Assembly: GCA_021851885.1 (NCBI GenBank)
Contig: JAJZBS010000011.1
Span: forward strand, 1-47,723
Origin: Actinomycetes bacterium
Lineage (GTDB): Bacteria; Actinomycetota; Acidimicrobiia; Acidimicrobiales; JAMCQF01
Direction of reading: 5' to 3'
DNA: 47,723 nucleotides
Positions 20,793 through 38,165 of this stretch are shown piece after piece. The position numbers and the translations under genes are program-made. Numbering within the stretch: position 1 is the stretch's first letter; each line of letters opens with the position of its first letter. The notes beneath the pieces were generated by a model. That model was not told the DNA's origin and did no database searches. It saw nothing but the letters and a program-made list of their open reading frames with translations.

Positions 20793-22478
20793 TCAGGTTT
20801 CGCCGGAGGTGTGCGTCACAGTGCGCGTGACGCGATCGCGAAGCGGTACCCCGTCCCGACCGACACGCGCAACCGACGCGTGAGCGCCCTGGGTGGGCTG
20901 GGTGCTTCCCCCTGCCTGGGTGCTTCCCCCTGCCTGGGGGGCCCTTCCGGCCAGGGGCTGCGGCGTGGCGGACACGGGGATGCGGACCCAGAAAAGTGTC
21001 TCGGGTGCCCGTGCCCGCAAGGCGGCGCCCCCGGTCGCTGCATCGCCATGCGACCCCACGGCAGCCATGGTGGCGTCGGGCCGCGTGTCGACGCCGACGG
21101 AGCCCCCATGCGCGCGAACGATTGCCGCGACGATCGCAAGACCCAATCCGGTTCCACCGGTCGAGCGAGCTCGCGACGGGTCAGCTCGCCGAAACGGTTC
21201 AAAGATCCGTGCACGGTCTTCGGGCGCGATCCCCGGCCCTCGGTCGGCCACTTCCAAGACCACGTGGTCCGGCTCCCGCTGGACGCGCACGACGACGGGC
21301 GTCCCCGGCGGGGTGTGCTGCAACGCATTCGTCACGAGGTTGTCGATGACACGACGGAGCCGGTTGGCATCGCCGATCACCGTCGACGCGCGCGGGTCTT
21401 CTGGCACCTCCACCGTGATCGGATGGGACGTCGCTTCACTCTGGCCGGCGCGAGCCGCGTCGACAGAGGTCGTTGCCACCTCCGCGATGGCGACCGGCTG
21501 CAAGTCGAGGGGCCTTTCCCGGTCGAGGCGCGCGAGCAGGAGGAGCTCCTCGACGAGCTCTGCCATCCGATCGGCCTCCGCGCGGATGTGGTGCATCGAC
21601 ATCTCCAGGTCCTCCGGCTGTGCCGCCGCGCCCCTGTCGAACATCTCGGAGAAGCCGCGAATCGCCGTGAGCGGGGTGCGGAGCTCGTGGGACGCGTCGG
21701 CAAGGAAGCGCCGCAAACGCGCCTCGGAGGCAGCCCGTGCCGCAAAGGCCTCTTCGATCTCACCGAGCATGGAGTTGAGGGCCGAGCCCAGCCGACCGAC
21801 CTCGGTGTCCGGATGGTCCAGTTCGATCCTCTGAGAAAGGTCCCCTCCGGCAATCGTGTCTGCGGTCTCGGCGATCTCCTCGAGGGGCCTGAGCCCGTGG
21901 CGCACCGCCCACCACGTTAGCGCTCCCAAGGCCAGGATCACGCCGAGCGAGACAAGCAGCTCGACGAGGAAAAGGTCGTGCAGCGTGGCATTCTGAGACG
22001 TCAGAGGGATAGCGATGATGACGGTGCCACCCTGTGCCGTCAGAGGGATGGCAAAGACCCGGTAGGACACCGACCCGCCCGATGTGGCCGTGAAGTACTC
22101 GCCGTCGGCCGGCGACGCTCCCGAGCCGGGCAGCTTGGTCGGGAGATTCGGCTGGGGGGGCGCGGCACCGCCAAAGGTGAAGAAGTCCGTAGCGACGACC
22201 TTGCCCGAGGCGTCCCGCAGCTCGCCGAAGGTGCCCGGCGGGACAAGGTTGCCGGGGCGGACTCCCCGGCCGACACCGAAAGGTTGCCCGCCCGACGACG
22301 CCTCGCCCGCGGTCGCAAGGAGCGCGCGCGTCACAGGGCCCGTCGCGCCTTGGAGCTGGCTGTCCAGCTGGCTCGTCAGGTCCGAGCGCAGCGACGTGAA
22401 GGTGAAGACGTCGGAGACGAGGAGGCCCGCGGCGACCAGGCTGATCAGTACCAGGACCAGCCGGAGGCGGAGGGTCAA
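20793..22478 (-). CDS. OmpR-family partner sensor histidine kinase (HAMP-HisKA-HATPase)
   Basis: FLADASHELRTPLTAIRGFSEMF H box, NLVTNALQHT N box, DRGPGIAPEDRARIFEPFRR, GTGLGLAIV. Confidence 0.95.
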   Translation of the reverse strand: MTLRLRLVLVLISLVAAGLLVSDVFTFTSLRSDLTSQLDSQLQGATGPVTRALLATAGEASSGGQPFGVGRGVRPGNLVPPGTFGELRDASGKVVATDFFTFGGAAPPQPNLPTKLPGSGASPADGEYFTATSGGSVSYRVFAIPLTAQGGTVIIAIPLTSQNATLHDLFLVELLVSLGVILALGALTWWAVRHGLRPLEEIAETADTIAGGDLSQRIELDHPDTEVGRLGSALNSMLGEIEEAFAARAASEARLRRFLADASHELRTPLTAIRGFSEMFDRGAAAQPEDLEMSMHHIRAEADRMAELVEELLLLARLDRERPLDLQPVAIAEVATTSVDAARAGQSEATSHPITVEVPEDPRASTVIGDANRLRRVIDNLVTNALQHTPPGTPVVVRVQREPDHVVLEVADRGPGIAPEDRARIFEPFRRADPSRARSTGGTGLGLAIVAAIVRAHGGSVGVDTRPDATMAAVGSHGDAATGGAALRARAPETLFWVRIPVSATPQPLAGRAPQAGGSTQAGGSTQPTQGAHASVARVGRDGVPLRDRVTRTVTHTSGET

Positions 22479-23215
22479 GCCGGTCTCTCCTTGAGTGGGC
22501 GCAGCACGTAGCCGACCCCGCGGACGGTGTGGATGAGCGCCGGCGCACTTCCGTCGACCTTGCGCCGCAAGTAGCTGATGTAGATCTCCACCACGTTGGC
22601 GTTCCCGTCGAAGTCGTAGCTCCAGACCCTGTCGAGGATCTGCGACTTCGAGACCACCCGACCGGCGTTGAGCATCAGGTAGTGCAGGAGCTTGAACTCG
22701 GTCGGGGTCAAGTTCACCACGGCATCGGCGCGGCGGACCTCGTGGCTGTCCTCGTCAAGCTCGAGGTCGCCGACGACGAGCCTGTTGTCCTGATCAGCCC
22801 CGTGAACCCGGCGCAAGACGGCCCGCACCCGGACGATGAGCTCCTCGACGCTGAATGGCTTGGTCATGTAGTCGTCGCCACCGAGCGTGAAACCGCGCAG
22901 CTTGTCGTCGAGCGTGTCGCGCGCGGTCAGGAACAGGACGGGAAGCGATCCGGCACGACGGTCCGCGCCCAAGCGATCGAGGACCTCGAATCCGTCGAGA
23001 TCGGGGAGCATGACGTCGAGCACGACGAGATGAGGACGAAAGGAGCCCACGGCCTCGATCGCGGCACGGCCTTCGTGGACGACCTTCACGTCGAAGCCCT
23101 CGTAGCGCAGAGCCATGGCGAGAAGATCGGTGATGCTGACCTCGTCGTCGACGACGAGTATGCGAGCCGACCGGGCGGTGCCCGCGTCGGTCAAGCGGGG
23201 GTTTGGTGCGGGCAT
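22475..23215 (-). CDS. OmpR/PhoB family response regulator
   Basis: ILVVDDEVSITDLLAMAL, LVVLDVMLPDLDGFEVL, FTLGGDDYMTKPFS, winged-helix C-term DSHEVRRADAVVNLTPTEFKLLHYLMLNAGRVVSKSQIL; 4-nt overlap with HK. Confidence 0.95.
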   Translation of the reverse strand: MPAPNPRLTDAGTARSARILVVDDEVSITDLLAMALRYEGFDVKVVHEGRAAIEAVGSFRPHLVVLDVMLPDLDGFEVLDRLGADRRAGSLPVLFLTARDTLDDKLRGFTLGGDDYMTKPFSVEELIVRVRAVLRRVHGADQDNRLVVGDLELDEDSHEVRRADAVVNLTPTEFKLLHYLMLNAGRVVSKSQILDRVWSYDFDGNANVVEIYISYLRRKVDGSAPALIHTVRGVGYVLRPLKERPA

Positions 23216-23258: not shown

Positions 23259-24137
23259 CTACCTGTGAAAGTGACTCCGAGCCTGAGAGTTGGCTGTGAC
23301 ACTTTGCCTCGCCGAGATGGAACTGCCCGGCACAACGGCGCCGGGCGCCGGAGCGCGTGCCGGCGACGGCCGAGTTCGGGCAGCGACCGTGACAACGAAG
23401 ACGACCGCCGCGGCGGCGGTACCTGCGCTCCACCCCCCGACGGCTCCCGTCGCGGCCACCACCACTGCTCCTTCAACGATAGAGATGGCGACGCGCGACG
23501 GACCGGCAAGCGACGAAAGACGCCGGTGGAACGAGACCAACCGGGCCGGCGACGTGATGCCGGCGCCGAGGAAGATCGCCAGGCCGCGCACGAGCCCGAA
23601 GACGACGCCAATCGACAGCGCCGCTGCGCTCGACCCGCTCAGCGCGGAAAGGACGACGGTCAGGTAGGTCCCTGCCGTCATGACGTAGGTGGCAAGACCG
23701 GACCCGATCTGCCAGCCGAAGCCGGAGCCGTAGACCCAAGGCCGGTAGAGGTCGAGCCAGTCCTCGTTGACCTGGCGCCGATGGATCGGGAGCCGGAGCC
23801 CGAAGAGCTCGAGATCGAATGCCCAGGCCGCGCACGCCGCGCACGCCGCCGCCGCGAAAGCGACCGTCGCTCCGCCGTGGGCCGGTGGTGCCAGGCCGAC
23901 CGCCGAGGCGCCGATCTCGGCGATGACGGCGACGAGCCCGAGGCTCGCTCCCCCGAGCAAAGCTCCGGCAACGAACCATGCCGCGGTGGCCGCGAAATGG
24001 TGACGACGCCCTCGCTCGGCAAGGGGTGTCATGGTCGACAGGATCGACAGGCCACACGGTGACCAGGTCGAACGGAGCGCTGCTGCGCAGGAGACCGCGG
24101 CTGCGAGGCCGACAAGGCCCTCCTGTGACGAGATCAT
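23259..24137 (-). CDS. polytopic membrane protein of the mau-like cluster (possibly MauF/CcdA-superfamily-like)
   Basis: Multiple TM segments; STWSPCGLSILSTMTPLAERGRRHHFAATAAWFVAGALLGG resembles CcdA/MauF-type SPCG..S motifs; ATGA overlap with preceding gene. Confidence 0.6.
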   Translation of the reverse strand: MISSQEGLVGLAAAVSCAAALRSTWSPCGLSILSTMTPLAERGRRHHFAATAAWFVAGALLGGASLGLVAVIAEIGASAVGLAPPAHGGATVAFAAAACAACAAWAFDLELFGLRLPIHRRQVNEDWLDLYRPWVYGSGFGWQIGSGLATYVMTAGTYLTVVLSALSGSSAAALSIGVVFGLVRGLAIFLGAGITSPARLVSFHRRLSSLAGPSRVAISIVEGAVVVAATGAVGGWSAGTAAAAVVFVVTVAARTRPSPARAPAPGAVVPGSSISARQSVTANSQARSHFHR

Positions 24138-24634
24138 CGAGAACCCCCTCCTCGGCGAGGCGCCACCGGGAAGGTGGCGGAGACGCGCACCGCCGACAGC
24201 AACCGGTTTGCCTCGCTCGCCAAGACATGGCGCAACCCAAAGCTGCCGATGACGACATACAGGCACAACGCCCTTTTCGCCGTCACGAAGAACGACTGGC
24301 AGCCGGCCTGTCCGGGCAGGTTCCGCTGGAGCGCGTTGGGGCGGAATTCGCCGCCGCTAAGCGGCCAGGGCACGCGCCTCTCGGAGAACAGAGCGGTGTG
24401 TGCGGCCTCGACGTCGTGCTCGAGCAGGGCGACGAAGACGCCGCGCTGGCCCAGCGTCTCGACCGTCCCTCCGCCATAGTCGCCCCGGTTCCGCGCCAAC
24501 GGCACGTTGGCGGCGTGCAGGATCGGCATGGTCACCTCGCCGCGGACGGCGTCTGGTTCGCGCCGGTATATCTCGGCCTCCCAGCCGGCCGGCACCTCGA
24601 CGGACAGGCCGAAGGCTGCGACGGTCGCCGTCAC
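24134..24634 (-). CDS. hypothetical protein in mau-like cluster
   Basis: 166-aa ORF, stop/start 4-nt overlaps on both sides; no motif recognised. Confidence 0.65.
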   Translation of the reverse strand: MTATVAAFGLSVEVPAGWEAEIYRREPDAVRGEVTMPILHAANVPLARNRGDYGGGTVETLGQRGVFVALLEHDVEAAHTALFSERRVPWPLSGGEFRPNALQRNLPGQAGCQSFFVTAKRALCLYVVIGSFGLRHVLASEANRLLSAVRVSATFPVAPRRGGGSR

Positions 24635-25482
24635 CGCGCCTCGTCCATACCGTCCCGCTCGCCGGTCACCGCCCCTTGTTGGGGCCGGCCCGGGTAGAGG
24701 CTCGGATCACCGGGATAGATCCCCGCCGCAGCAAGATCGGCGTCGGCCCGTGTCGCGCGTTCGGCCCCATTGAGATGTGCCCGGTCATGTCCGGCACCAC
24801 CGTGGCGCGGGCCGGCACGGTCGGTCGTGTGCCCGTCGGCATCCGCAACGTCGGCACCCGCAACGTCGTCAGCGGCGAACGAGGCGTCGGCCACGGCCCG
24901 CTGCAGCAGCGCGACGACCTCCTCCCACAGCGGTGCGGACCCCTCCCCCGCGACCGTTCCCGACGGTCCGTCGACCAGCACGAAATGGGGGCCACCAGGG
25001 ACGCCGTAGTCGCGGAAGGCCTCCGTCGACATGACGGTCACGACGTCGCCGGGCGCGATTGACGCGACCGCAGACGGGCTCTCGGCCTCGGGGCCACGGG
25101 TCACGGCGACGAGGCGCGTGTGGGGCCCGAGGTCGCGTGCCCCACCGTTGGCGAAGGCCTCCCAGAAGCCCGCGCACGACGAACAGCCACTCGACAGGAA
25201 GGCGAGCAGCGTGGAGTGACGCACCCCGCTCACGGCGACGGCCACAGCCGAGCCGGTGGGGCTCACGCCGTTGAGATCGTTTGCAACCGCACGCGTCGCT
25301 GCGCGAAGCCGCCTTCCCGTCGGGGCGCGTCCACCACGGTCCGGAGCAGAGGTGGGCTCGTAGACGCCGGCGCCGAGCTCGTGCAGCCGGCGCAGCACCT
25401 CGCCGTGGCTGCGCAACAAACCGACGACGAGGACGGCGAGCAGGGCGACAACGACGGTTTCGACCACTACGAGCGCCAGCAC
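24631..25482 (-). CDS. MauD-like membrane-anchored thioredoxin-fold protein
   Basis: N-term TM VLALVVVETVVVALLAVLVVGLL; LLAFLSSGCSSCAGFWEAFANGG (CxxC), VTVMSTEAFRDYGVPGGPHFVLVDGPSGTVAGEGSA (cis-Pro region). GTG start at 25482 chosen because of an upstream AAAGGA SD. Confidence 0.75.
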   Translation of the reverse strand: MLALVVVETVVVALLAVLVVGLLRSHGEVLRRLHELGAGVYEPTSAPDRGGRAPTGRRLRAATRAVANDLNGVSPTGSAVAVAVSGVRHSTLLAFLSSGCSSCAGFWEAFANGGARDLGPHTRLVAVTRGPEAESPSAVASIAPGDVVTVMSTEAFRDYGVPGGPHFVLVDGPSGTVAGEGSAPLWEEVVALLQRAVADASFAADDVAGADVADADGHTTDRAGPRHGGAGHDRAHLNGAERATRADADLAAAGIYPGDPSLYPGRPQQGAVTGERDGMDEAR

Positions 25483-25513
25483 GACCCGTCCTTTCTCGTC
25501 ACCGCGACACTCC

Positions 25514-27097
25514 TCATCCGCGGTCTCCACCCGCCGGGAACGGCGTGGGAACGTCGAGCTTCGCACACCCAATCGGCGATTCCGGCATCCCACCCGCCGC
25601 AACCGCGACCACACACACGTCGTGGACACCGGCAGCCGTCGCGACCACGACATCGAAGCCGTGCGCGGGCCCGAACGCCGGAAATGCCTTTGCGACGTCG
25701 GGCCGGTCGACGTCGGCGAGGACACGCGTCGCGAATACCCCGTCGACGGTCACGAGGACCTCGATCGGCTGGGGGGTTGCCGGGTCGATGGCCCACCCGG
25801 CGACCCGGAGCACGCTCCCCTCAGCGGAGGCACTGTCGAGGTTGCCGAAGGGGGCTCCACAGCTCAGGGTGGCACAGGCGAGTCGGGTGGGCTCCCCGAG
25901 GCCGGCGTTGAGAGCCGTGACGCAGACGTCGTGGACTCCGCGCGGAACGGGGACCACGGCGTCGAAGCCATGGGCCGGCCCCATCGTGGGGAACAGGGCA
26001 CCCACATCGGGACGAGCGACAGACGCGGCAATGCGCGCGGCGACGGCGCCGTCGATCGTGACTTGGATCGTGACGGGGTCCGTCGTGTCCGGATCGATCG
26101 CCCATCCCGCGACACGCACGTCCAAGGTGTCCGGCGCGACGGCGATCACGTCGAGGTGGCCGAACGGGTCGTGGGGGGCGACCGTCGCGCATCCCAGAAG
26201 CACGTTGCCCGGGCCGAATGCGACGTTGACCCCCGTCGCGCACACGGCAAACCCCTCGATTGTGTCCGGCGTCACGGGCACGACGTTCGTAAAGCCATGG
26301 TCGGAGCCGTAGCCGGGGAGGAACGCGCCGACGTCGGGCCGGTTGGAAGAAGCGGACAACGTTGCCGCCTGGGCGCCTGCAACCGATATCTGGACGTCGA
26401 TCGGTGCCGGCGTGTCGAAATCGACCGCCCAACCGGACACGGCGATCCCGCCGGCGACCTGCGTGGCCGAGTCGAGATGGCCGACGACGGCGTGCAAGCA
26501 CGGAGCGTCGTGGGTCGCGGTGGACTCGTCGGTCTGGGCCGTCGTGGTGCACGTGGGTTCGATCTCCCATGGAGGGATGCATGCCACCACCCGGCACACG
26601 ATTGGACCCAGGCAAGGGATCTCCTGGTTGCATTGGCCGTAGCGGAACTCGTTGCAGCCCGTCGCCCGGAGCCCGCAGTCATCCTCAGCGCAACCGCATC
26701 CCGTCCCGGAGCAAGAACCGGGACACACACCGCTCGATCCACAGCCGCAGTCGCCACAGGTGGCGTTGCAGTCCATGTAGTAGCGCGGACCCGCGCAGAA
26801 CTGCGTCCCGTCTGCCTTCCACCACCCGGCCATGACGGTGCCCGTGGGGCAGGCGTTGTACCCCGTCAGGGTGCAGCAGAACTCGGTGTAGCCGTCACAG
26901 CACATCGCGCCGCATCCGCACAGAGCGCCATGACAGTTGCACACCGCGCCATAGGCATCGCCCGGCTCGAGAGCGTAGGTGAGGGGCTCGAGCGCGAGTG
27001 CGGTTGCCGTGACGACTGTCCGCCCGAGGAACCCCCGACGGGTCACCCGGGGGAGCGAACCCGCAAGAGTATCGACGGCACCCGACAGAAAGCTCAT
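25514..27097 (-). CDS. Tat-secreted Cys-rich methylamine-dehydrogenase-light-chain-like protein fused to three C-terminal GWAxDPD repeats
   Basis: Tat motif TRRGFLGRTVVTATALA; CCTLTGYNACPTGTVMAGWWKADGTQFCAGPRYYMDCNATCGDCGCG ... FRYGQCNQEIPCLGPIVC resembles MADH small subunit; then three units GHLDS..VSGWAVDFDT / FGHLDV..VAGWAIDPDT / FGNLDS..VAGWAIDPAT. ATGA overlap with MauE-like gene. Confidence 0.75.
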   Translation of the reverse strand: MSFLSGAVDTLAGSLPRVTRRGFLGRTVVTATALALEPLTYALEPGDAYGAVCNCHGALCGCGAMCCDGYTEFCCTLTGYNACPTGTVMAGWWKADGTQFCAGPRYYMDCNATCGDCGCGSSGVCPGSCSGTGCGCAEDDCGLRATGCNEFRYGQCNQEIPCLGPIVCRVVACIPPWEIEPTCTTTAQTDESTATHDAPCLHAVVGHLDSATQVAGGIAVSGWAVDFDTPAPIDVQISVAGAQAATLSASSNRPDVGAFLPGYGSDHGFTNVVPVTPDTIEGFAVCATGVNVAFGPGNVLLGCATVAPHDPFGHLDVIAVAPDTLDVRVAGWAIDPDTTDPVTIQVTIDGAVAARIAASVARPDVGALFPTMGPAHGFDAVVPVPRGVHDVCVTALNAGLGEPTRLACATLSCGAPFGNLDSASAEGSVLRVAGWAIDPATPQPIEVLVTVDGVFATRVLADVDRPDVAKAFPAFGPAHGFDVVVATAAGVHDVCVVAVAAGGMPESPIGCAKLDVPTPFPAGGDRG

Positions 27098-27606
27098 CGC
27101 CGCGCCGCCGCAAGTGTCGCCGGCAGCGTCGTCATGACCACGACGACGAGCCACGCCGCCACGGCAATGGCAATCGCCTCGGGGACACCCGCGTACGGCA
27201 GGCGCCACCACCCCCCGATCGCACCGGGTGCACCGGTCGCGGCCGCCGCGGCACCGGCAGCGCAACCGCCGAGATCGACCGCGACGTGGAGGGACGACGG
27301 CGGGGTGGATCGGCTCCCAAAGCATCCGCAGGACCGTTCCGGAGCCGTCCGGCGCAATCGGAGGCTCGCGATCGCAAAGACGAGGTAGACGCTTGCGAGA
27401 GCCGCGGCGAGAAGGCGGCCCGCCGACAGCACGGTCGCGGCGCCAAGGCCTATCTCTGCCGCACCGAGCGTCCGGGCTGCGGCCGGAGTCGAGCCCAGCC
27501 ATAGGGCGCGAAGCATGTCCTCGCTTGATCGTGGGTCCGCGATCTTGAATGCGCCGCTCACCACGAGGACGATCGCCATAACGGCGAGCGGTCCGAAGGC
27601 CGTCAT
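27094..27606 (-). CDS. MauE/DoxX-family redox-associated membrane protein
   Basis: LAVMAIVLVVSGAFKIADPRSSEDMLRALWLG, AAEIGLGAATVLSAGRLLAAALASVYLVFAIASLRLRRTAPERSCGCFGS. Confidence 0.75.
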   Translation of the reverse strand: MTAFGPLAVMAIVLVVSGAFKIADPRSSEDMLRALWLGSTPAAARTLGAAEIGLGAATVLSAGRLLAAALASVYLVFAIASLRLRRTAPERSCGCFGSRSTPPSSLHVAVDLGGCAAGAAAAATGAPGAIGGWWRLPYAGVPEAIAIAVAAWLVVVVMTTLPATLAAARR

Positions 27607-27762: not shown

Positions 27763-29154
27763 TCAGGCGCCGGACACCGGAAGGGTCGCTGTGATGCGCG
27801 TACCGGCGCCGGGCCGCGCTTCTACCTCGAGGTGACCACCGAGAAGGTGGGCGCGCTCACGCATGCCGACAAGGCCGAGACGTGCCCTGCCCTGAACGGT
27901 GATCGCGGCCGGGTCGAAACCGACGCCATCGTCGCTGAGTGTGAGCTCCAGCGCATCCTCCCCGAAGGTGAGGGCGATGGCCACACTGTGGGCTTTGGCG
28001 TGGCGCACCGTGTTGCGCAACGCCTCCTGGACGATCCGGAAGGCGCCGAGCTCGATCCCGGGGGCCAGGCGCACCTCGCCGCCGGTCACGGCTATGTCCC
28101 CGTTCAAGCCGGCCTCGTCCTCGACGTCGGCGAGAATGCTGGAGATGGCCGCGACCAGGCCCAGCTGATCGAGGGCGGGCGGGCGCAGGTCACGCGCGAG
28201 GACCCTCAGGCGCGAGGCGGCGTCGATCGCTTGATGGCGTGCCTGGGCCAGGCCGGCGGCGACCGGGCCGGGCACCCCCGAAGACCCGCCGAGGCTCTCG
28301 AGACGCCGGGCCAGGTGGAGGAACAGCTGGAGGGGTTCGTCGTGCAGCTCCCGGGAGAGTTTCCGGCGCTGGTCCTCCTCGACGGACACGACGAGCTGGG
28401 CATAGCGGGTTGCCTGGCGCCCGACCCGGCGTTCCTCGGTCACGTCTTCGAAGATGACCTGCGTCGCCGTCCGCCCGCCGAGAACCGGCAGTGGGCAGAG
28501 GGCGACCCGGTAGTCGCGGCCACCGGGAACCGTCAGGACCTTCCCGGCGCGGGTGTCGATCGGCCCGCCATCACCGAGGACGGTCTGCCAAGGCCGGCCC
28601 TGGACCAGCTCCCCGAACAGAGCTGCCGCCGCCGGGTTCGTATCGGCAATCCGTCCACGCTCGTCGACGACGAGAATCGGGGCGACGTTTGCCTCGAAGA
28701 GCGCCCGGTAGCCGGCTTCGGCGGCAAGCCGGCCGGCCGTTGCCCGCTCGAACCGGGCGTGTGCCATGCGTTCGGCTTCGATGCGCTGACCAACGAAGAA
28801 GGCGACCAGGTCCACGAGGGCGAGCTCGACAAGGTCACTGCCGATGTGGCCCTCGCCGTGGGGCAGCACGAGGTCGGGGATCCACAACAGTGTCGCCCAG
28901 ACGCCGGTCGCGGCCGATCCGGCGAGCCCGTAGCGGAGGGCGGCGTAGCCGACGGGGATGATGAGCAAGGCGACCGGGAGGCCGACGGGGAACTGTGCCG
29001 ACTCGGCCTGGCTTTTGGCGTCGACGAGCAGGTGAATGCCGGCGATCAGGATGACGGCGGCCTGGATGGCCCAGAAGCGCCACTGGCGCACCGGCGGGTG
29101 TGCCGCCCGCGCGATGACCGCGCCAAGCTCAGCTGTCGGAGGGCGCGTGTCCAT
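27763..29154 (-). CDS. NarL-type sensor histidine kinase (PAS, HisKA_3, HATPase)
   Basis: ILVVDERGRIADTNPAAAALFG PAS; SVEEDQRRKLSRELHDEPLQLFLHLARRLE H box; LTLSDDGVGFDPAAITVQGRARLGLVGMRERAHLLGG. Confidence 0.92.
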   Translation of the reverse strand: MDTRPPTAELGAVIARAAHPPVRQWRFWAIQAAVILIAGIHLLVDAKSQAESAQFPVGLPVALLIIPVGYAALRYGLAGSAATGVWATLLWIPDLVLPHGEGHIGSDLVELALVDLVAFFVGQRIEAERMAHARFERATAGRLAAEAGYRALFEANVAPILVVDERGRIADTNPAAAALFGELVQGRPWQTVLGDGGPIDTRAGKVLTVPGGRDYRVALCPLPVLGGRTATQVIFEDVTEERRVGRQATRYAQLVVSVEEDQRRKLSRELHDEPLQLFLHLARRLESLGGSSGVPGPVAAGLAQARHQAIDAASRLRVLARDLRPPALDQLGLVAAISSILADVEDEAGLNGDIAVTGGEVRLAPGIELGAFRIVQEALRNTVRHAKAHSVAIALTFGEDALELTLSDDGVGFDPAAITVQGRARLGLVGMRERAHLLGGHLEVEARPGAGTRITATLPVSGA

Positions 29155-29881
29155 CGTCTGCAGCGGCGACGAGGTGGTGCGATATGGCGAAGAGGACGGC
29201 CTCGGTCCGGGAGGCCACCCCCAGCTTGGCCAGCACGTTCGAGACATGGCCTTCGACCGTGCGCAAGCCGAGCCCGAGCTCGTTGGCAATGTGCTTGTTC
29301 GACATCCCCCGGGCAAGGCGCTCGAGGACGTCGGTCTCGCGCGGTGTCAATGACCCGGGTCCCGGCGGCGTCGCCGGAGGGCCGCTTCGCCAGCGCCGGG
29401 ACAGCCGGCCGGACATCGCCCGGTCGAGGACGAAGACCCCGTCCGCGACGGCGCGGACTGCATCGACGAGCTCGCGCGAGCTCGCCGTCTTGAGCAGGTA
29501 GCCCCCGACGCCGAGCTCGAGGGCCTCGGAGACGTAGGCGTAGTCGTCGTAGGCGCTCACGACGAGCACCTGGATCTCCGGGAAGCTCTCGCGCACCTCC
29601 CGGGCCAGCTCCAGCCCGCTCATTCCGGGCAGGTTGACGTCGACGAGGACGACGTCAGGCGGGCGCCCACCTGGGCGCCGCAGGATGCCGAGGGCATCCT
29701 CTCCGCTGCCGGCCTCGTCGGCGACCTCGATGCCCGCTTCCTGGCCAAGGAGCTGGACGGTCCCTTCACGCACCAGCGCGTGATCGTCGACGACCATGAC
29801 GCGCACCAGGTCGGCCCGGGCGACCGAGGGGGCCGGATGCGATTCGGCTCCCGGCTCCCGGGCAGGTAGGGCTTCCCTCAC
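29129..29881 (-). CDS. NarL/LuxR family response regulator
   Basis: VRVMVVDDHALVREGTVQLL, DVVLVDVNLPGMSGLELAREV, LTPRETDVLERLARGMSNKHIANELGLGLRTVEGHVSNVLAKLGVASRTEAVLFA. Confidence 0.95.
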   Translation of the reverse strand: MREALPAREPGAESHPAPSVARADLVRVMVVDDHALVREGTVQLLGQEAGIEVADEAGSGEDALGILRRPGGRPPDVVLVDVNLPGMSGLELAREVRESFPEIQVLVVSAYDDYAYVSEALELGVGGYLLKTASSRELVDAVRAVADGVFVLDRAMSGRLSRRWRSGPPATPPGPGSLTPRETDVLERLARGMSNKHIANELGLGLRTVEGHVSNVLAKLGVASRTEAVLFAISHHLVAAADDGHAPSDS

Positions 29882-30034: not shown

Positions 30035-30319
30035 GTGGTCGACGTGCTCCGTCTCGGGCTCAGCGTTCTGTTGGTCGTCGCTTTGGCGACCGTCGTCGCG
30101 TACGTGCTCGCATTCTTCGCCTTGGCCGCTTGGACCCTGATCCGCGGCTCCCATGCAGACCCCCTGGCAGAGGAGCTCGACAGCGTCCTTGACGAGATCC
30201 TCGCGCCGGCCGCGCCCGCCGGAACAATTCTGCGGCATGCCCCCGCATCGTCGGCGCGGCGCGGACGGCGCGAGCTTCGCCTGAGCCAGCGTGCTCGCCA
30301 TTTCCAGAAAGGACTGTGA
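30035..30319 (+). CDS. small single-TM protein leading the cupredoxin/NrfD operon
   Basis: MVDVLRLGLSVLLVVALATVVAYVLAFFALAAWTLI; stop overlaps next ATG (TGATG). Confidence 0.6.
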   Translation: MVDVLRLGLSVLLVVALATVVAYVLAFFALAAWTLIRGSHADPLAEELDSVLDEILAPAAPAGTILRHAPASSARRGRRELRLSQRARHFQKGL

Positions 30320-30972
30320 TGGGCGATCCGATACAGACAGGGACCGAACCCACAAGGTATGCCGTCGGCATTGCGACCTTGCTCGGAGGCATCGTCCTTG
30401 GACTCGGTCTCGTCTTCGGGATGGCGGCGGGAGTCGGCGCCATCTGGTCGTCCGTCACGGCATCGGCGACACCGTCGGCGTCGAGCAGCTCAGGCGGGGC
30501 CGCACCGAACGGCGCCTCAGGCTCTGCGGCTGCGTCGAATACAGGCATGAGCTCGATGAACCAGAGCGGCGCTTCGTCCGCAACGGGTTCGGCACCGGCC
30601 GCCGGCGCCGCGTCGGCAGGTGCCGTCCAGGACGTCTCGCTCGTCGTCGATCCCCCGCCGCTCGGCGGCCGGAAAGGCCCTGACGGACATGTCTACGATG
30701 CCTTCGTCCCCGCGACGTTCTCCATGAAGGTCGGCGTGACCGTCAAAGTCACGGTCCTCAACTACGACACCTTGCCCCATACCTGGACGTCCCCCGGTCT
30801 CGGCGTCAACACGATGGTGCCGGCCGGATCGTCGACATCGCCAAGCCGGACCACCTTCACGATCCACCCCACGAAAGCCGGCACTTTCTCTTGGTACTGC
30901 GCCACGCCGTGCGATTCGTTTGCCATGAAGACGAACGGCTTCATGCGGGGCACCGTGACGGTGACGGCATGA
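30319..30972 (+). CDS. membrane-anchored cupredoxin-domain protein (1)
   Basis: TM then low-complexity Ala/Ser linker; FSMKVGVTVKVTVLNYDTLPHTWTSPGLG ... GTFSWYCATPCDSFAMKTNGFMRGTVTV. Confidence 0.8.
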   Translation: MGDPIQTGTEPTRYAVGIATLLGGIVLGLGLVFGMAAGVGAIWSSVTASATPSASSSSGGAAPNGASGSAAASNTGMSSMNQSGASSATGSAPAAGAASAGAVQDVSLVVDPPPLGGRKGPDGHVYDAFVPATFSMKVGVTVKVTVLNYDTLPHTWTSPGLGVNTMVPAGSSTSPSRTTFTIHPTKAGTFSWYCATPCDSFAMKTNGFMRGTVTVTA

Positions 30973-31703
30973 GCGGATCAGCCAAGCACCGTCGCTCGCC
31001 CGCGGCGACGGCCGCCAACCTGGGCGAGCACCTACTCGCCGGCCTCGACCATCTCGGACAACCGGTCGTACGCCGTTCCATCTCGCGCTTCGCCCGCTCC
31101 GTCGGCATCGTCGGCGCCACTCTCGCTGTCATCTTCGCAGGCCTCGCCGTCACCGTCGCGGCGGTCGCCGGGATCGCGCAGGGTGTCAGCACCGCGTCAG
31201 GCCACCTTGCCGCGTCAACCCGTCCTCTGACCGGCGGCCCTCCCGTGACCGAGTCGATGGAGATCCTCACGGGCAAGATGGACGGGCGTTCCGGTTGGCC
31301 CCGTTACACGAACGCCTCCTGGTCGGTGCACGCAGGCCAGTCGGTCACGATCAAGATCACGAGCTACGACGACGGCACTGCCCCACCCATGGGCTCCCAG
31401 GCCATGTACAACACGGTCGAAGGCACCGTCGGCGGCACGGAGACCGTCGACGGACGCACCATCCGGGGTATGCCGACGGAGGACGTCGCCCATACCTTCA
31501 CGATCGTCGCCCTGCGCCTCAACCTGCCTATTCCGGCAGCTCCTACCGGCGGGAGTGTCACCGTCGTCGCCCGGTTCGTCCCAAAGGTCACCGGCGTATT
31601 CATGTGGCAGTGCTACGCGCCGTGCGGTTCGGGCAAGAACGCGATGGGCGGGGCGATGTCGACCATGGGATGGATGGAGGGAAAGGTCACGGTGTCCGCA
31701 TGA
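30969..31703 (+). CDS. membrane-anchored cupredoxin-domain protein (2)
   Basis: TM; SWSVHAGQSVTIKITSYDDG ... VAHTFTIVALRLNLPIP ... GVFMWQCYAPCGSGKNAMGGAMSTMGWMEGKVTV. ATGA overlap. Confidence 0.75.
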   Translation: MSGSAKHRRSPAATAANLGEHLLAGLDHLGQPVVRRSISRFARSVGIVGATLAVIFAGLAVTVAAVAGIAQGVSTASGHLAASTRPLTGGPPVTESMEILTGKMDGRSGWPRYTNASWSVHAGQSVTIKITSYDDGTAPPMGSQAMYNTVEGTVGGTETVDGRTIRGMPTEDVAHTFTIVALRLNLPIPAAPTGGSVTVVARFVPKVTGVFMWQCYAPCGSGKNAMGGAMSTMGWMEGKVTVSA

Positions 31704-32617
31704 ACGACGAACCGCAGCCGCCGAACTCGGGCAAGGACGGCCCCCCCGCCGCAACCGAGACCCAGAGCGAGCCCCAGGAGACCTCCGGCCCCGCACGCAT
31801 CGAGCGGCGGAGCTTCCTCGGGCGCGCCGTCGTCGGAGGAGTGGGCGTCACCGCCCTCGGAGCTCTCGCCGAGCGCCTGTTCGCAACTCCCGCACCGGCC
31901 GGAGCCTCCCCGACGAAGGCAGGTTCCTCGGCACCGACCGCGAGCTCGAGCGGCCAGGCCGACCACCAGTGGGCCATGGTCATCGACCTGCGCTACTGCA
32001 ACGGCTGCAAGCTCTGCACGGCTGCGTGCCAGGCCGCTCACTACCTACGCCCTGAGCAGACCTGGATAGACGTCTTCACGATGCGCACGGCCGAGAACAA
32101 GACCTACTCCATGCCACGGCCCTGCATGATGTGCGAGGACCCGCCGTGCGTTCCCGTGTGCCCGGTGAGTGCCAACGTCCGCACGAGCGACGGGCTGACC
32201 CTCGTCGACCAGTCCCGTTGCATCGGCACGCGCATCTGCATGAACGCCTGCCCCTACGAGGCCCGCTACTTCAACTGGTCAGACTCGCGCTCCGTGCCGC
32301 GCCAACCCTTCCCCCAGGAACCGGAGTGGCCCGTCCCCCAGCAAAAGGGCACCGTCGGCAAGTGCATCTTCTGCGCGGCGATGCTCCCTTCCGGACAGGT
32401 GCCCGAATGCGTTGCCGACTGCCCCATGGGCGTCCTCTACCTCGGGGACATCGTGCGCGACGTCGCCGTGAACGGCTTGGGGAACACGGTGACGTTGTCG
32501 ACCTTCCTCAAAGAGAACGACGCTGTCCGCTTCAAAGAGTCCTACGGGACAAGCCCGCGGGTCTGGTACATCCTCGGCCACGGCCAGGACCTCGAATCCG
32601 ATACGTCGGCAAGCTGA
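31700..32617 (+). CDS. Tat-exported multi-cluster 4Fe-4S protein, NrfC/PsrB/DmsB-like
   Basis: ERRSFLGRAVVGGVG Tat signal; CNGCKLCTAACQAAH, CMMCEDPPCVPVCP, CIGTRICMNACPYEARYFNW, CIFCAAMLPSGQVPECVADCP. ATGA overlap. Confidence 0.93.
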   Translation: MNDEPQPPNSGKDGPPAATETQSEPQETSGPARIERRSFLGRAVVGGVGVTALGALAERLFATPAPAGASPTKAGSSAPTASSSGQADHQWAMVIDLRYCNGCKLCTAACQAAHYLRPEQTWIDVFTMRTAENKTYSMPRPCMMCEDPPCVPVCPVSANVRTSDGLTLVDQSRCIGTRICMNACPYEARYFNWSDSRSVPRQPFPQEPEWPVPQQKGTVGKCIFCAAMLPSGQVPECVADCPMGVLYLGDIVRDVAVNGLGNTVTLSTFLKENDAVRFKESYGTSPRVWYILGHGQDLESDTSAS

Positions 32618-32630
32618 GGAGGCTGGGGCC

Positions 32631-34157
32631 ATGGACGACGGAATGGAACGAACCGCAATCGACGGTCGCCATCTGCGCTCGGCCGCCATGCGCCCGATCA
32701 TGGAGACACCGCGCTGGTGGTGGCCGGCGGTCCTCGCGCTGGGTGCCGTCGTCGTGGCCGGCGTGGTCGCCTGGGCTGTCCAGCTCGGAGACGGGTTGGG
32801 CGTCGCGGGATACAACGACAATGCCTTTTGGGCCGTCTACGAGGCGGACCTCGTCGCCTTCATCGGCGTGAGCTACGGCGGGGCCGTCGTCTCGGCCATC
32901 CTGCGCCTGACCAACGCTCAGTGGAGGGCGCCGCTCACCCGGATCGCCGAGGCGACGGCACTCGTCACGCTGCCGATCGGCATGCTCTTCATCATCCCCC
33001 ACCTGGGGAGCCCACAGAAGATCTGGGAGCTTATCTGGCCGCCGTACTGGAACCTCTCCTCCCCCATTCTCTGGGACTTCTTCGCAGTGAGCACCTACCT
33101 GCTCGCGACGATCGTGTTCTTCTACCTCCCGCTCATTCCCGACCTCGCGACGTGCAGGGCGTACCTCGACGACCCGAACAACGCCCGCACCGGCGACTCG
33201 CTCGGGCTCGGGAGCATCGCCGGGCTGCGTGCCCGGATGCGCAACGCGCGGCTGCGGACCGCACGCACCCTCTACCGGATCGGGGCGGGTCGTTGGACAG
33301 CGACGAACACCCAGCGCCGTCTGCTGCACGGGTCGATCGGCCTCGTGGCGATCATGGTCATCCCGATGGCGGTCTCGGTGCACTCGGTCCTGTCGTTCGC
33401 CTTCGCGTCGTCGAGCAGAGCCGGCTATCTCGAGACGATCCTCCCGGTCTACTTCGTGGTGGCCGCCCTCTACTCGGGGGTCGCGCTCGTGGTGCTCACC
33501 GTCGCGGCCGCACGCAAGCTCTACCACCTCGAGCCTTACATTCACCGCCGTCACTTCGTCCGGCTGGGGTTCGTTCTCGTCGCCTTCGGGGCCGCCTACC
33601 TGTACCTCACCTTCACGGAGTACCTCATCGACGGGTACTCGGGGGCGCAGGGCAACGCCGCGTGGGTTCGCCAGATCATCGTCGGCCGGTACTGGGTCCC
33701 ATTCTGGATCTACTTCGTCGCCGCAGGCCTCATCCCGCTTCTCATCGTGGCGGTCAAGCGTTTGCGCACCATGAACGGCGTCGTCGTCGCATCGGGACTT
33801 GTCGTCGTCGCCATGTGGATCAAGCGGCTCGTGATCGTCGTGCCGCCCGCCTCTGAGCCCCTTGTCCGTTCCCCGTTGACGTCGTCGGGCTTCTTGTCGG
33901 GAGACTGGGGCACCTACCACTTCACGTGGGTCCCGATCGCCATCACGCTCGCCGCGACGGCCGCCATCCCGCTCTTGCTCCTTGTCGTCTTCCGCTTCGT
34001 GCCAATCCTTCCGGTCGCCGAGATCGAAGAGATGTCAGAACAGCACGGGAGCACGAACGGGAACGGCGCGCTGGATGCGCTCGAAGTCACCACACCCAAT
34101 GCCCGCCTTGACGAGCGGCAGCCCGTCGGAGCCGGCGACGAGATCGGGAGGTCCTGA
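32631..34157 (+). CDS. NrfD/PsrC-type membrane quinone-interacting subunit
   Basis: ~8+ TM; GYNDNAFWAVYEADLVAFIGVSYGGAVVSAILRLTNAQWRAPLTRIAEATALVTLPIGMLFIIPHLG and WPPYWNLSSPILWDFFAVSTYL. Confidence 0.93.
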   Translation: MDDGMERTAIDGRHLRSAAMRPIMETPRWWWPAVLALGAVVVAGVVAWAVQLGDGLGVAGYNDNAFWAVYEADLVAFIGVSYGGAVVSAILRLTNAQWRAPLTRIAEATALVTLPIGMLFIIPHLGSPQKIWELIWPPYWNLSSPILWDFFAVSTYLLATIVFFYLPLIPDLATCRAYLDDPNNARTGDSLGLGSIAGLRARMRNARLRTARTLYRIGAGRWTATNTQRRLLHGSIGLVAIMVIPMAVSVHSVLSFAFASSSRAGYLETILPVYFVVAALYSGVALVVLTVAAARKLYHLEPYIHRRHFVRLGFVLVAFGAAYLYLTFTEYLIDGYSGAQGNAAWVRQIIVGRYWVPFWIYFVAAGLIPLLIVAVKRLRTMNGVVVASGLVVVAMWIKRLVIVVPPASEPLVRSPLTSSGFLSGDWGTYHFTWVPIAITLAATAAIPLLLLVVFRFVPILPVAEIEEMSEQHGSTNGNGALDALEVTTPNARLDERQPVGAGDEIGRS

Positions 34158-34465: not shown

Positions 34466-35833
34466 CTAACGGCGGCGTGCCCCCAGGCAGCAGTGCTTGT
34501 ACTTCCGACCACTCCCGCAGGGGCACGCCTCGTTGCGCGATGCGTGTGACCAGCGGGCCCGTTCCTCCCGCTCCCGTGCGGCGAGCTCTCCCATGATCGT
34601 GGCGATTGGGCGCCCGGACCGCACGTGCAAGGCCATCCGCTGGGCGTAGGGATGGACGTGGCCGTAAAAGCGCCGGTAACCGGCGCACAGGTAGTTGAGC
34701 CCGACTTCGGTGCCCCCGTGGGGGATACTGCCACTCGCGACGCCCCGTTCTGCGCGATCCACCGGCGGCGGCACGAGGAACCGGTCCTTCGGGCATCCCC
34801 CGTTGCAGTAGCGAAGCACCGGGCACGCCCGGCAGCCGGGCGCGAGAAGGTCTAGCTTCGCCGCCCCGAAGGATTCCTGCTCGGCGCTGTCCACGAGGCC
34901 CAATAGCCCGGTGGCTGTCAGGTTGCCGAGACGGTGCTCGGCGTCGACGAAATGGTCGCAGGAGTAGACGCTCCCGTCGTGCTCGACAGCAGGTACCCGC
35001 CCGCAGGTCTCCGCCATGACGCACAGGTTGGGTGAGATCCCCCCCGCGACCAGGAGGCACTCGAGGAAGTTCTGGATGCCGATCCGGTCGACGTCGTTGC
35101 GGACCCACTCGTCGAAGATCGTGCAGAGGAACTCTCCCATCGCCTCGGCAGGCACCGACTCAGCGGTCACGGCGCCGTCACCGGTGCGCCGGACGACCGG
35201 CAGGAACTGCAGCCAGCGCACACCGGCGTCGAGGAAGAACCGGTACACGCCGAGCGGAGCGGTGGCCGTCGCGGCGTTGAGCGTGCAGAGCACGTCGGGC
35301 TCGATGCCGTGGGAACGGAGCAGCTCAAGCCCTCGCAGGGCACGCTCGTGGCTCGGGCGCCCGCGGCGATCGGGGCGCCCGGCGTCGTGGAGGGCGGCCG
35401 GGCCGTCGAGGCTGAGACCGACCGAGAACTCGTTGGCGGCGAGAAAACTGCACCAGCGATCGTCGAGCAGGGTGCCGTTCGTCTGCAGGTTGTTGACGGC
35501 GCGCCAGCCTTGAGGCAGGTAGCGCGCCTGGTAGTCAAGAGCCCTGCGGTAGAGCTCCCGGCCGGCCAGGGTTGGTTCCCCTCCATGCCAGACGAAGTGG
35601 ACGGTCGGTCCTGGGCTCGCTGCGATGAACTCCCGCACATACGCCTCGAGGACGGCGTCACTCATGCGATAACGCTCGCCGCGGGCAAACAGCCCCGTCT
35701 TGTCGAGGTAGTAGCAGTACCGGCAGTCGAGGTTGCACAGCGGCCCGACGGGCTTCGCCATGACGACGAGCGGGTCCGCTTCGATTGCCGTCGCCCCCCT
35801 TGAGGCAACGCCCGGCGGGCCTGCTGTGCTCAC
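34466..35833 (-). CDS. anSME-like radical SAM/SPASM protein with C-terminal SEC-C motif
   Basis: CNLDCRYCYYLDK, HFVWHGGEPTLAG, NNLQTNGTLLDDRWCSFL, SVGLSLDG; SPASM CGRVPAVEHDGSVYSCDHFV, CRACPVLRYCNGGCPKDR; SEC-C NEACPCGSGRKYKHCCLG. Confidence 0.92.
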   Translation of the reverse strand: MSTAGPPGVASRGATAIEADPLVVMAKPVGPLCNLDCRYCYYLDKTGLFARGERYRMSDAVLEAYVREFIAASPGPTVHFVWHGGEPTLAGRELYRRALDYQARYLPQGWRAVNNLQTNGTLLDDRWCSFLAANEFSVGLSLDGPAALHDAGRPDRRGRPSHERALRGLELLRSHGIEPDVLCTLNAATATAPLGVYRFFLDAGVRWLQFLPVVRRTGDGAVTAESVPAEAMGEFLCTIFDEWVRNDVDRIGIQNFLECLLVAGGISPNLCVMAETCGRVPAVEHDGSVYSCDHFVDAEHRLGNLTATGLLGLVDSAEQESFGAAKLDLLAPGCRACPVLRYCNGGCPKDRFLVPPPVDRAERGVASGSIPHGGTEVGLNYLCAGYRRFYGHVHPYAQRMALHVRSGRPIATIMGELAAREREERARWSHASRNEACPCGSGRKYKHCCLGARRR

Positions 35834-35849
35834 CTCTGTCCGGGGATCT

Positions 35850-38165
35850 CTAGCGCGTCACCGCCCGCGTCCCGCCGGCACCGGCTGCTGCTGCTTGGGC
35901 CCGTTGGGCCTCTACGCCCGCCGGCCAGCACAGGGCGAGAAGCTCGCGGGCGAAGCCGACGGCGTCGCTCGGCGCACCGTTGCGGGAGAATCCGGCGTGC
36001 GCCACGACGTCGGCCCCGGCCTTCTCCAGTGCCGCGGCCATCTCTGCGAGTGCCGCCTTCGGGGATACGGCGTAGGTGCAGAAGACGGCGGCCTTCTTAC
36101 CCCCGAGGTGCGGAAGCGCCGCGAGCCAATCGCGAGCCCGCCGTGCCGGATGGACCCCCGCCACGACGAACCCCTCGACCCACGATCCGACGATGACGAC
36201 ATCTGCGGCTGCGAGCTCACGCGCTCCGACCCTCTTCAGGGGCAGGGCAGTCACCTGGGCTCCGCGGCCCGTCAACGCACCGGCAATGGCACGGGCTGCC
36301 GTCTCGGTGCGACCCCCGTTGCTCTCGTAGCAGACAAGAACTCTGCTCGGGGCAACGGTGGGGCGGCCCGGGCGCCGCGGTTGGGACGCGAGCAACGACC
36401 GGACTGCGGCCCTACCTTGAGCCATCGCCTCGACGACGGTCGAGGGCCCGACGACGGCGTCACCGGCGGCGAACAGGCGATCGCGGAACGGGAGTGCCGC
36501 CGCCTGGATGCCGACCTCCCGACCGAGAGCGAGCGTGCCGACCGGGCGGCTGTGCGCGAACGGCGAGGCAGGGCCGGCAAGGACCCCACTTGCCATCCAG
36601 CTCCGGTCCGGGACCCCGGCAGGTGCGACACGCTTGAGCGGCGTCCCCGGGAGCACTTTGGTGAAGTCCGGGTCGTTTCGGTAGCCCATGGCCATGACGA
36701 CCATGTCGACGGGTACTTCGACAGGCTTTGCGCGCTGAACCTTCGGAAGCGTCGTCGGGCTCTCCTGGATTGTCGTGGCAAGATATGCACGACGGACCGT
36801 CGAGCGGCCGGCGGTCGCCGTACCGGGAGCCGGACCGTCGCCCCCCTCGAGACGGACCAGCGTGTGGAGGAAACGCACCTCCACGCCTTCAGCCTCCGCC
36901 TCGGCCAACTCGTCGGGCCGCACGGGAGCGAAGCGGCGATCCAGCCACTCGACACAGGTCGCCTCGATGCCGAGGCGGCGGGCCGACCGGGCCACGTCCA
37001 TCGCGGTGTTGCCGCCTCCGAGGACGAGGATGCGGTGCGCCCCGGCCGTCGCCGCACGGTCGACCTGGGGGGCTTCGCCCGCGGCCGGTGCCACGAGCGG
37101 GAGCACGCTCGCCAGGGTCGCCTCGCCGTCGAGGACGGCCTTCGATGCGTGCAGGAAGCTCGTCGCGTCAACGACGCCGTTCAGGTCTCCTCCGGGCACC
37201 GGAAGCCGCATCGGCACGCCCGCGCCGACGGTGAGGACGACCGCGTCATGGACGCTAAGAAGTTCGTCAAGGTCGCCGGCGGCCACTTCCTTGCCGCACT
37301 CGAGCGTCACACCGGCCGCGCGCAGCTGATCCCAGGCACGGTCGGCGACGGCTTCGGGCAGGGTGAAGTCCGGGATCCCCCAGCGCAGGAGCCCACCCGG
37401 GTTGTCGTCCTTCTCGAAGACGGTCACCTGTGCGCCGGCCGACGCAAGGTCCCAGGCTGCCGCGATCCCCGCGGGACCTGCCCCGACGACGGCGACCGAC
37501 AGGTCGTCACCTGCCGATGACGTCTTGGCCAGGGGCGGGACCGGGGCCTGCTCGGTGATGAAGCGCTCGATGGCCCCGATCGCAACCGGAGTCCCGCCGG
37601 CGAGTGACCAGCTGCACGCCCCCTCGCACTGGGCTGACTGGTCGCAGACACGCGAGCACACGTCGGGCAGGAGGGTCGTCCGCCGCAGAATCGTGTGGGC
37701 GCGCTCCAGGTCCTTGTCCGCCACCGCCGAGATGAAACCAGGGATGTCGTTGTGCGCCGGGCAGCCCCGGACACATGTCGGATCGGGGCAGCTCAGGCAG
37801 CGGGATGCCTCGGCGAGAGCCTCATCCCAGGTCGAGAAGCCCGAACGCGTCTCGGACACGTCACCTTCGATGCGCGCCGGGTGCTGGGTCGTGACCGCCG
37901 TGCGCGCCGTGACAATGAGAGGCCCACTCACCGTGATCGCCGAGAACGGGCACGTGCGGACGCACTGGCGGCATCCGACGCACTTGGTCTCGTCGGCGAC
38001 GGCAATCCAGAGCTCGCTGTTCATGCTCAGAGCCTCTTCCGGGCAGCGCACGACGCACTCCTGGCACCCCGCGCACCTGTCCGCGAAGATCGAGACATGG
38101 GGGTGTCCGTTGGTCTGGCCTGCTTGCGTCCCCTGTGCGGCACCGGCTGTGTCGAGAACAGTCAT
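35850..38165 (-). CDS. ferredoxin - GltD-like FAD oxidoreductase - flavodoxin fusion
   Basis: CAGCQECVVRCP, CVGCRQCVRTCP; CLSCPDPTCVRGCPAHNDIPGFI; VAVVGAGPAGIAAAWDLASAG, ILVLGGGNTAMDVARSARRLG; C-term VLVCYESNGGRTETAARAIAGALTGRGAQVTALPL flavodoxin-like. Confidence 0.9.
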   Translation of the reverse strand: MTVLDTAGAAQGTQAGQTNGHPHVSIFADRCAGCQECVVRCPEEALSMNSELWIAVADETKCVGCRQCVRTCPFSAITVSGPLIVTARTAVTTQHPARIEGDVSETRSGFSTWDEALAEASRCLSCPDPTCVRGCPAHNDIPGFISAVADKDLERAHTILRRTTLLPDVCSRVCDQSAQCEGACSWSLAGGTPVAIGAIERFITEQAPVPPLAKTSSAGDDLSVAVVGAGPAGIAAAWDLASAGAQVTVFEKDDNPGGLLRWGIPDFTLPEAVADRAWDQLRAAGVTLECGKEVAAGDLDELLSVHDAVVLTVGAGVPMRLPVPGGDLNGVVDATSFLHASKAVLDGEATLASVLPLVAPAAGEAPQVDRAATAGAHRILVLGGGNTAMDVARSARRLGIEATCVEWLDRRFAPVRPDELAEAEAEGVEVRFLHTLVRLEGGDGPAPGTATAGRSTVRRAYLATTIQESPTTLPKVQRAKPVEVPVDMVVMAMGYRNDPDFTKVLPGTPLKRVAPAGVPDRSWMASGVLAGPASPFAHSRPVGTLALGREVGIQAAALPFRDRLFAAGDAVVGPSTVVEAMAQGRAAVRSLLASQPRRPGRPTVAPSRVLVCYESNGGRTETAARAIAGALTGRGAQVTALPLKRVGARELAAADVVIVGSWVEGFVVAGVHPARRARDWLAALPHLGGKKAAVFCTYAVSPKAALAEMAAALEKAGADVVAHAGFSRNGAPSDAVGFARELLALCWPAGVEAQRAQAAAAGAGGTRAVTR

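Follow-up and report, generated by a model that had tools for sequence, protein, structure and literature searches.

The assembly of methylamine dehydrogenase (MADH) requires MauF, a protein to which, to our knowledge, no mechanism has been assigned so far, and the tryptophan tryptophylquinone (TTQ) cofactor of this enzyme is formed by its residues Trp57 and Trp108. Here, we examine a module of five genes, denoted E, L, D, X and P, in a stretch of 47,723 nt (hereafter, the window) that corresponds to contig JAJZBS010000011.1 of assembly GCA_021851885.1, from an Actinomycetes bacterium of the Acidimicrobiales (JAMCQF01). The described system with which it is best compared is the mau cluster of Paracoccus denitrificans (NC_008688). 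Homologues of mauF, mauE and mauD are all found in the module, where they lie beside a gene for a Cys-rich protein exported in the manner of the twin-arginine translocation (TAT) pathway. In contrast to the Paracoccus cluster, however, the module lacks mauB, mauG, amicyanin, mauJ and napGH, its substrate is no recognisable light chain, it contains the additional gene X and, in most relatives, its P protein is a candidate selenoprotein. We propose that the module is probably a dedicated thiol/selenol-disulfide relay that folds a secreted surface protein, and not a quinoprotein system.

The homologies of the three membrane components were established with reference profiles built from true mau clusters on plasmids and compared by hhalign. 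P (23259..24137, minus strand), a membrane protein resembling the DsbD superfamily, matched MauF at 99.4% (E-value 6e-21, 180 columns) and has the STWSPCG motif in common with it, whereas the negative control, P against MauE, gave 0.1%. A preliminary description of this locus, made from the DNA alone, had left this fifth gene as an unassigned polytopic membrane protein; the match to MauF replaces that view and rules out an orphan membrane protein. The MauE-like and MauD-like genes named in the same description were confirmed. E (27094..27606, minus strand), a MauE/DoxX-type membrane protein with an invariant SCGCFG motif (Cys-Gly-Cys) in the homologue alignment, scored 54.4 bits against PF07291 (cut-off 27) and matched MauE at 97.9% (E-value 6e-13). 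D (24631..25482, minus strand), a membrane-anchored protein of thioredoxin fold with an invariant CxxC, matched MauD at 98.1% (E-value 8e-14), its score against TIGR02661 (18.7 bits) being under the cut-off. With P, E and D thus assigned by profile to MauF, MauE and MauD, the F-E-D maturation trio is complete, and its members are linked in most loci. A search for P in plasmids found no match. The DsbD/CcdA carriers (PF13386 and its relatives) resemble P in having an SPC motif near the N-terminus, and 5 of 27 P homologues weakly match PF13386 (DsbD_2; best 2.9e-6); but P has only one conserved Cys/selenocysteine per protein, whereas CcdA and DsbD employ two redox cysteines.

The module is more than a local arrangement. 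Homologues of L, sought with its first 201 residues in 149 genomes of the same order, were present in 43 of these, and the L domain was found outside the order in 24 genomes of the phylum; the named relatives are mostly Acidimicrobiia, and the cultured strain Acidiferrimicrobium sp. IK (locus L126) is one of those that have the module. When the genes of 40 fetched loci and the window were called and clustered into families, D and X were each found in 40 of the 41 loci, L in 39, E in 36 and P in 31, while the next commonest neighbour family in the same clustering reached only 7. The order of these genes differs among loci (one genome has D-P-X-E-L, for example, and a second E-L-D-P-X), which argues for a functional linkage rather than a single inherited operon, and through these shuffles L, D and X remain together. 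The conservation of the five-gene neighbourhood, which had been put forward as a check, extends across the Acidimicrobiia and other Actinomycetota beyond chance. P itself, at a threshold of >200 bits, occurred in 44 of the 149 genomes of the order, that is in all 43 that have L and in one of the 106 others, and in 24/24 of the L genomes outside the order; those genomes without P beside L carry it elsewhere. This near-perfect co-occurrence, together with the cohesion of L, D and X, bears on the alternative that E, D and P form a disulfide system for the envelope at large, with an unrelated surface protein as a mere neighbour. Such a reading could appeal to the several genomes in which P is away from L and to a sister trio that serves a different Cys-rich exported protein, but given the co-occurrence we consider it unlikely.

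The sister cluster was seen in Acidimicrobiales genomes that have no L (L239:3232-6330, L240, L241, L242 and L243). It comprises MauE, MauD, a MauF paralogue and another Cys-rich protein with TAT-type export (about 480 aa; CGQSGVSPKC...WGWCWY...KKICDCC), a combination that supports the view of the trio as a kit of general use to proteins of this sort. The sister substrate matched MADH at 96% by hhalign over 32 columns with the signal peptide included; its mature part did no better than shuffles (8/100).

L (25514..27097, minus strand), the presumed substrate of the module, is 527 aa long and secreted, and its signal (RRGFLGR) is twin-arginine-like. It consists of a Cys-rich domain (26495..26968, minus strand; 158 aa with 26 Cys) and a variable C-terminal surface region (25514..26494, minus strand), which in the window copy is made of immunoglobulin-like repeats (RPDV...HGF) and in relatives of SLH, LGFP, ricin-B lectin, DUF4214 or FG-GAP modules; L looks like a Cys-rich domain shown on interchangeable surface anchors. 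In an alignment of 91 homologues, the GWW, RY, DC and FRYG motifs of the domain are invariant (GWW, DC and FRYG in 91/91), and these Trp-Trp, Arg-Tyr, Asp-Cys and Phe-Arg-Tyr-Gly signatures hold from the Acidimicrobiia to distant Actinomycetota. Its AlphaFold2 (AF2) model has a predicted local distance difference test score (pLDDT) of 86.3 and a predicted template-modelling score (pTM) of 0.81.

The preliminary description suggested that L is a protein of the MADH light-chain type, re-purposed and provided with its own disulfide and maturation machinery. The machinery stands, as MauE, MauD and MauF; the identity as a light chain is not supported. L does resemble the light chains of MADH and aromatic amine dehydrogenase (PF02975) in its twin-arginine signal, its richness in disulfides and the order of its CPPGT...W...DC motifs. 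However, neither the window copy nor any of 27 homologous domains matched the PF02975 model, whereas the light-chain-like proteins of Thermomicrobium do, and the AF2 model found no fold match in the PDB, although MADH light chains are among the solved structures. Sequence searches of the PDB with the L, X and D profiles returned nothing useful. Against MADH light chains alone hhalign gave L a probability of 1.4%, rising to at most 40% with the Thermomicrobium sequences added; the 91 L domains compared with the light chains and their Thermomicrobium relatives scored 29.6, more than 100/100 column shuffles, and the invariant WW was placed near Trp57 of TTQ. The membership of L in PF02975 was set aside as unproven, and at this borderline similarity its homology to the MADH light chain, judged on sequence, cannot be considered established. 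L differs from the light chains also in being fused to surface modules and in its tryptophans: the sole Trp conserved in at least 93% of the 91 homologues are the adjacent W49 and W50, and the equivalent of Trp108 is therefore missing.

The absence of MauB and MauG that had been reported for the window was borne out genome-wide. MauB (PF06433) was found in none of the 40 module genomes by a search that detected the positive control, P. denitrificans. CCP_MauG (PF03150) was found neither in the window's genome nor in 36 of the 40 module genomes, the other 4 having some protein of this family. A divergent MADH-type light chain could in principle bear a tryptophan-derived quinone matured by another enzyme that replaces MauG, as the preliminary description had envisaged; the homologues of MauF, MauE and MauD around L, the score above all shuffles, the placing of the WW pair and the invariance of GWW, DC and FRYG could be read in this sense. 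But with the failure of the PF02975 and fold searches, the low hhalign probabilities, no second, non-adjacent conserved Trp, and neither MauB nor MauG in the window's genome, the quinoprotein reading of L is quite improbable. Still less likely, in our estimate, is that the Cys-rich domain carries a new protein-derived redox cofactor on W49/W50, which a selenol-dependent MauF relay would install without MauG and which would be displayed at the surface for electron transfer or catalysis.

On a plasmid of Thermomicrobium roseum (NC_011961; L152:6697-16225), propeller-like exported proteins alternate in tandem with several PF02975 light-chain-like proteins (<=36 bits). The genes of this array are mostly unannotated, and the record is without a PF06433 match.

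A further feature that sets the module apart from the classical mau genes concerns the cysteine of the WSPCG motif of P (Cys28; codon 24054..24056, minus strand). In most loci the gene caller placed the start of P late, and its first helix and the site in question were lost until the upstream sequence was read. These short genes are not N-terminally truncated relatives, a possibility ruled out by an in-frame TGA upstream of the called start, which in most homologues takes the very position of the Cys in WSPCG (RSTWSP*GESMLSSIHPLGER). In all fetched loci this codon is TGA (83), TGC (15) or TGT (7) and no other, the window copy having TGT. The MauF paralogue of the sister cluster has its own in-frame TGA in the corresponding position (SLWSP*GLSVTETV). 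A general change of the code was ruled out, TGA being the main stop codon elsewhere (235 of about 317 called genes). Outside the order, 23 of the 24 L genomes have TGA, the match in the remaining one (G330) being interrupted by a contig end.

The distribution of the TGA form closely follows that of the selenocysteine (Sec) machinery. A tRNA-Sec gene was present in 24/24 of a first set of TGA-form genomes and in 49/51 overall (27/28 in the order and 22/23 outside it), the two without it (G131 and G405) being 79% and 89% complete; among the Cys-form genomes of the order it occurred in only 2/16 (Fisher p=1.5e-8 against the 27/28). The distribution of selB shows broadly the same pattern. ARAGORN identified the gene in four sampled loci as tRNA-SeC with anticodon UCA, and the best match in the window's genome, whose P is a Cys form, falls under the family cut-off. 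One genome, G019, has both a tRNA-Sec gene and a selB-like match at no more than about 9 kb from the module (contig C12:193959-202603).

An RNA structure accompanies the UGA codon. In 74/82 UGA forms, as opposed to 4/22 Cys forms, a hairpin with a stem of 6 bp or more and a loop starting in G lies 29-33 nt after the UGA. The spacing is inside the range of 16-37 nt downstream of UGA that is given for the bacterial selenocysteine insertion sequence (bSECIS) model in a recent inventory of 119 prokaryotic selenoprotein families (PMC13188914, 2026). In 27 rows of UGA forms, 98.6% of the cells are paired, compared with 34-48% when the structure is slid, and there are 15 compensatory cells, with 0/500 shuffles reaching as high; the same structure imposed on the Cys forms gave 60.8% paired and no covariation signal. 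Phe TTC is coupled with Glu GAA in 11/12 cases, GAA being found in 0/70 others. Mean folding energy alone did not separate UGA from Cys forms (-21.4 vs -20.0), whereas the specific hairpin does, and Rfam at its gathering thresholds gave no match in three loci. That the TGA is instead a genuine stop, with translation re-initiated at a nearby ATG (GGNGAGTCGATG) to yield a shorter P with neither the first helix nor Sec, has in its favor the closeness of this ATG and a purine-rich, Shine-Dalgarno-like stretch before it in many copies, but is highly improbable given that TAA or TAG occurs in 0/83 cases, that in-frame coding conservation (RSTWSP) continues upstream and matches the single open reading frame of the Cys forms and of MauF, that the purine stretch varies (GGAACC, GGACTT), and that the TGA is tightly tied to tRNA-Sec and to a covarying hairpin confined to the TGA forms. 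From its sequence, P is a candidate selenoprotein in most relatives, the window copy being a Cys form.

Among the families named in the accessible part of the same inventory (PMC13188914) there is neither a MauF-like one nor a WSPUG motif, although an earlier listing under another name is possible. The selenoproteins described there resemble the Sec form of P in the pairing of UGA with Cys forms, in a bSECIS-like hairpin and in redox context, and several of the listed families are thiol-disulfide proteins. NCBIfam has no model of such a family, and a search for papers linking MauF with selenoproteins found nothing relevant. The Sec form of MauF is apparently undescribed.

The preliminary description had all five genes on the minus strand, as they are, with three of their junctions as ATGA overlaps. 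Those at 27094-27097 and 24134-24137 do read ATGA, but the one at 24631-24634 reads GTGA because the start codon of X is GTG; the tight junctions themselves are real. The gap of about 31 nt between L and D measures 31 nt with GTG 25482 as the start of D, which is the start that lines up with the D homologues in their alignment; an alternative upstream start, GTG 25530, would give an overlap with L. X (24134..24634, minus strand), a soluble protein of 166 aa, is indeed new and tightly coupled to the others, as had been claimed: it lies outside known families, none of 26 members matched Pfam, and it is kept in 40/41 loci. No export signal is evident in its sequence.

The gene set, the homologies, the co-occurrence and the evidence for Sec were computed; from these we infer a scheme in which the module would be an extracytoplasmic maturation kit, derived from the mau F-E-D genes or sharing ancestry with them. 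L would be made in the cytosol and then exported, probably by the TAT pathway. After export, a relay composed of MauE (CGC), MauD (CxxC) and MauF/P (WSP-Cys/Sec-G, with a single catalytic thiol or selenol) would contact L and oxidise and/or isomerise the disulfides of its Cys-rich domain, of which roughly 13 are possible. In most relatives Sec would be inserted at the UGA of P by means of the SECIS hairpin. X, for want of an evident export signal, would most likely act from the cytosolic side, as a helper of L or of its partners. The variable C-terminal module would presumably anchor L, once mature, to the cell surface.

Several points weigh against this scheme. In eight genomes (G096, G076, G140, G023, G111, G090, G002 and G080) P is distant from L, and it may therefore also serve other substrates. 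With one conserved Cys where CcdA and DsbD have two, a DsbD-type mechanism for P is not established. The AF2 model of X (pLDDT 93.8) is only weakly like PsbP/Mog1-like folds (Tsi3 and PsbP, for example; E-value 3.8e-3 or worse, template-modelling score about 0.3), a match that assigns it no function. The codon and SECIS statistics take sequences, not independent events, as their unit. Finally, Sec insertion and redox activity are computational predictions.

Within the window, two-component systems of the OmpR and NarL types (20793-23215 and 27763-29881) flank the module on both sides and on the same strand. Beside it, on the plus strand (30316-34157), lies an operon-like run encoding a cupredoxin, a second protein that matched nothing in Pfam, a 4Fe-4S ferredoxin and NrfD, which suggests a membrane electron-transfer complex. 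At 34466-38024, a radical SAM protein with a SEC-C motif is adjacent to a 724-aa iron-sulfur flavoprotein with a flavodoxin-like segment.

The novelty lies in the use of a mau-type trio of maturation proteins on another substrate, and in a Sec form of MauF that has apparently not been described before. The candidate selenoprotein family is widespread in the Acidimicrobiia and other Actinomycetota, and its TGA codon splits the P gene in ordinary gene calling. The mau F-E-D kit would also serve substrates other than the amine dehydrogenases, and the natural exchange of Cys and Sec at the WSPCG motif of MauF points to this residue as a catalytic thiol, so that a redox role for MauF becomes directly testable.

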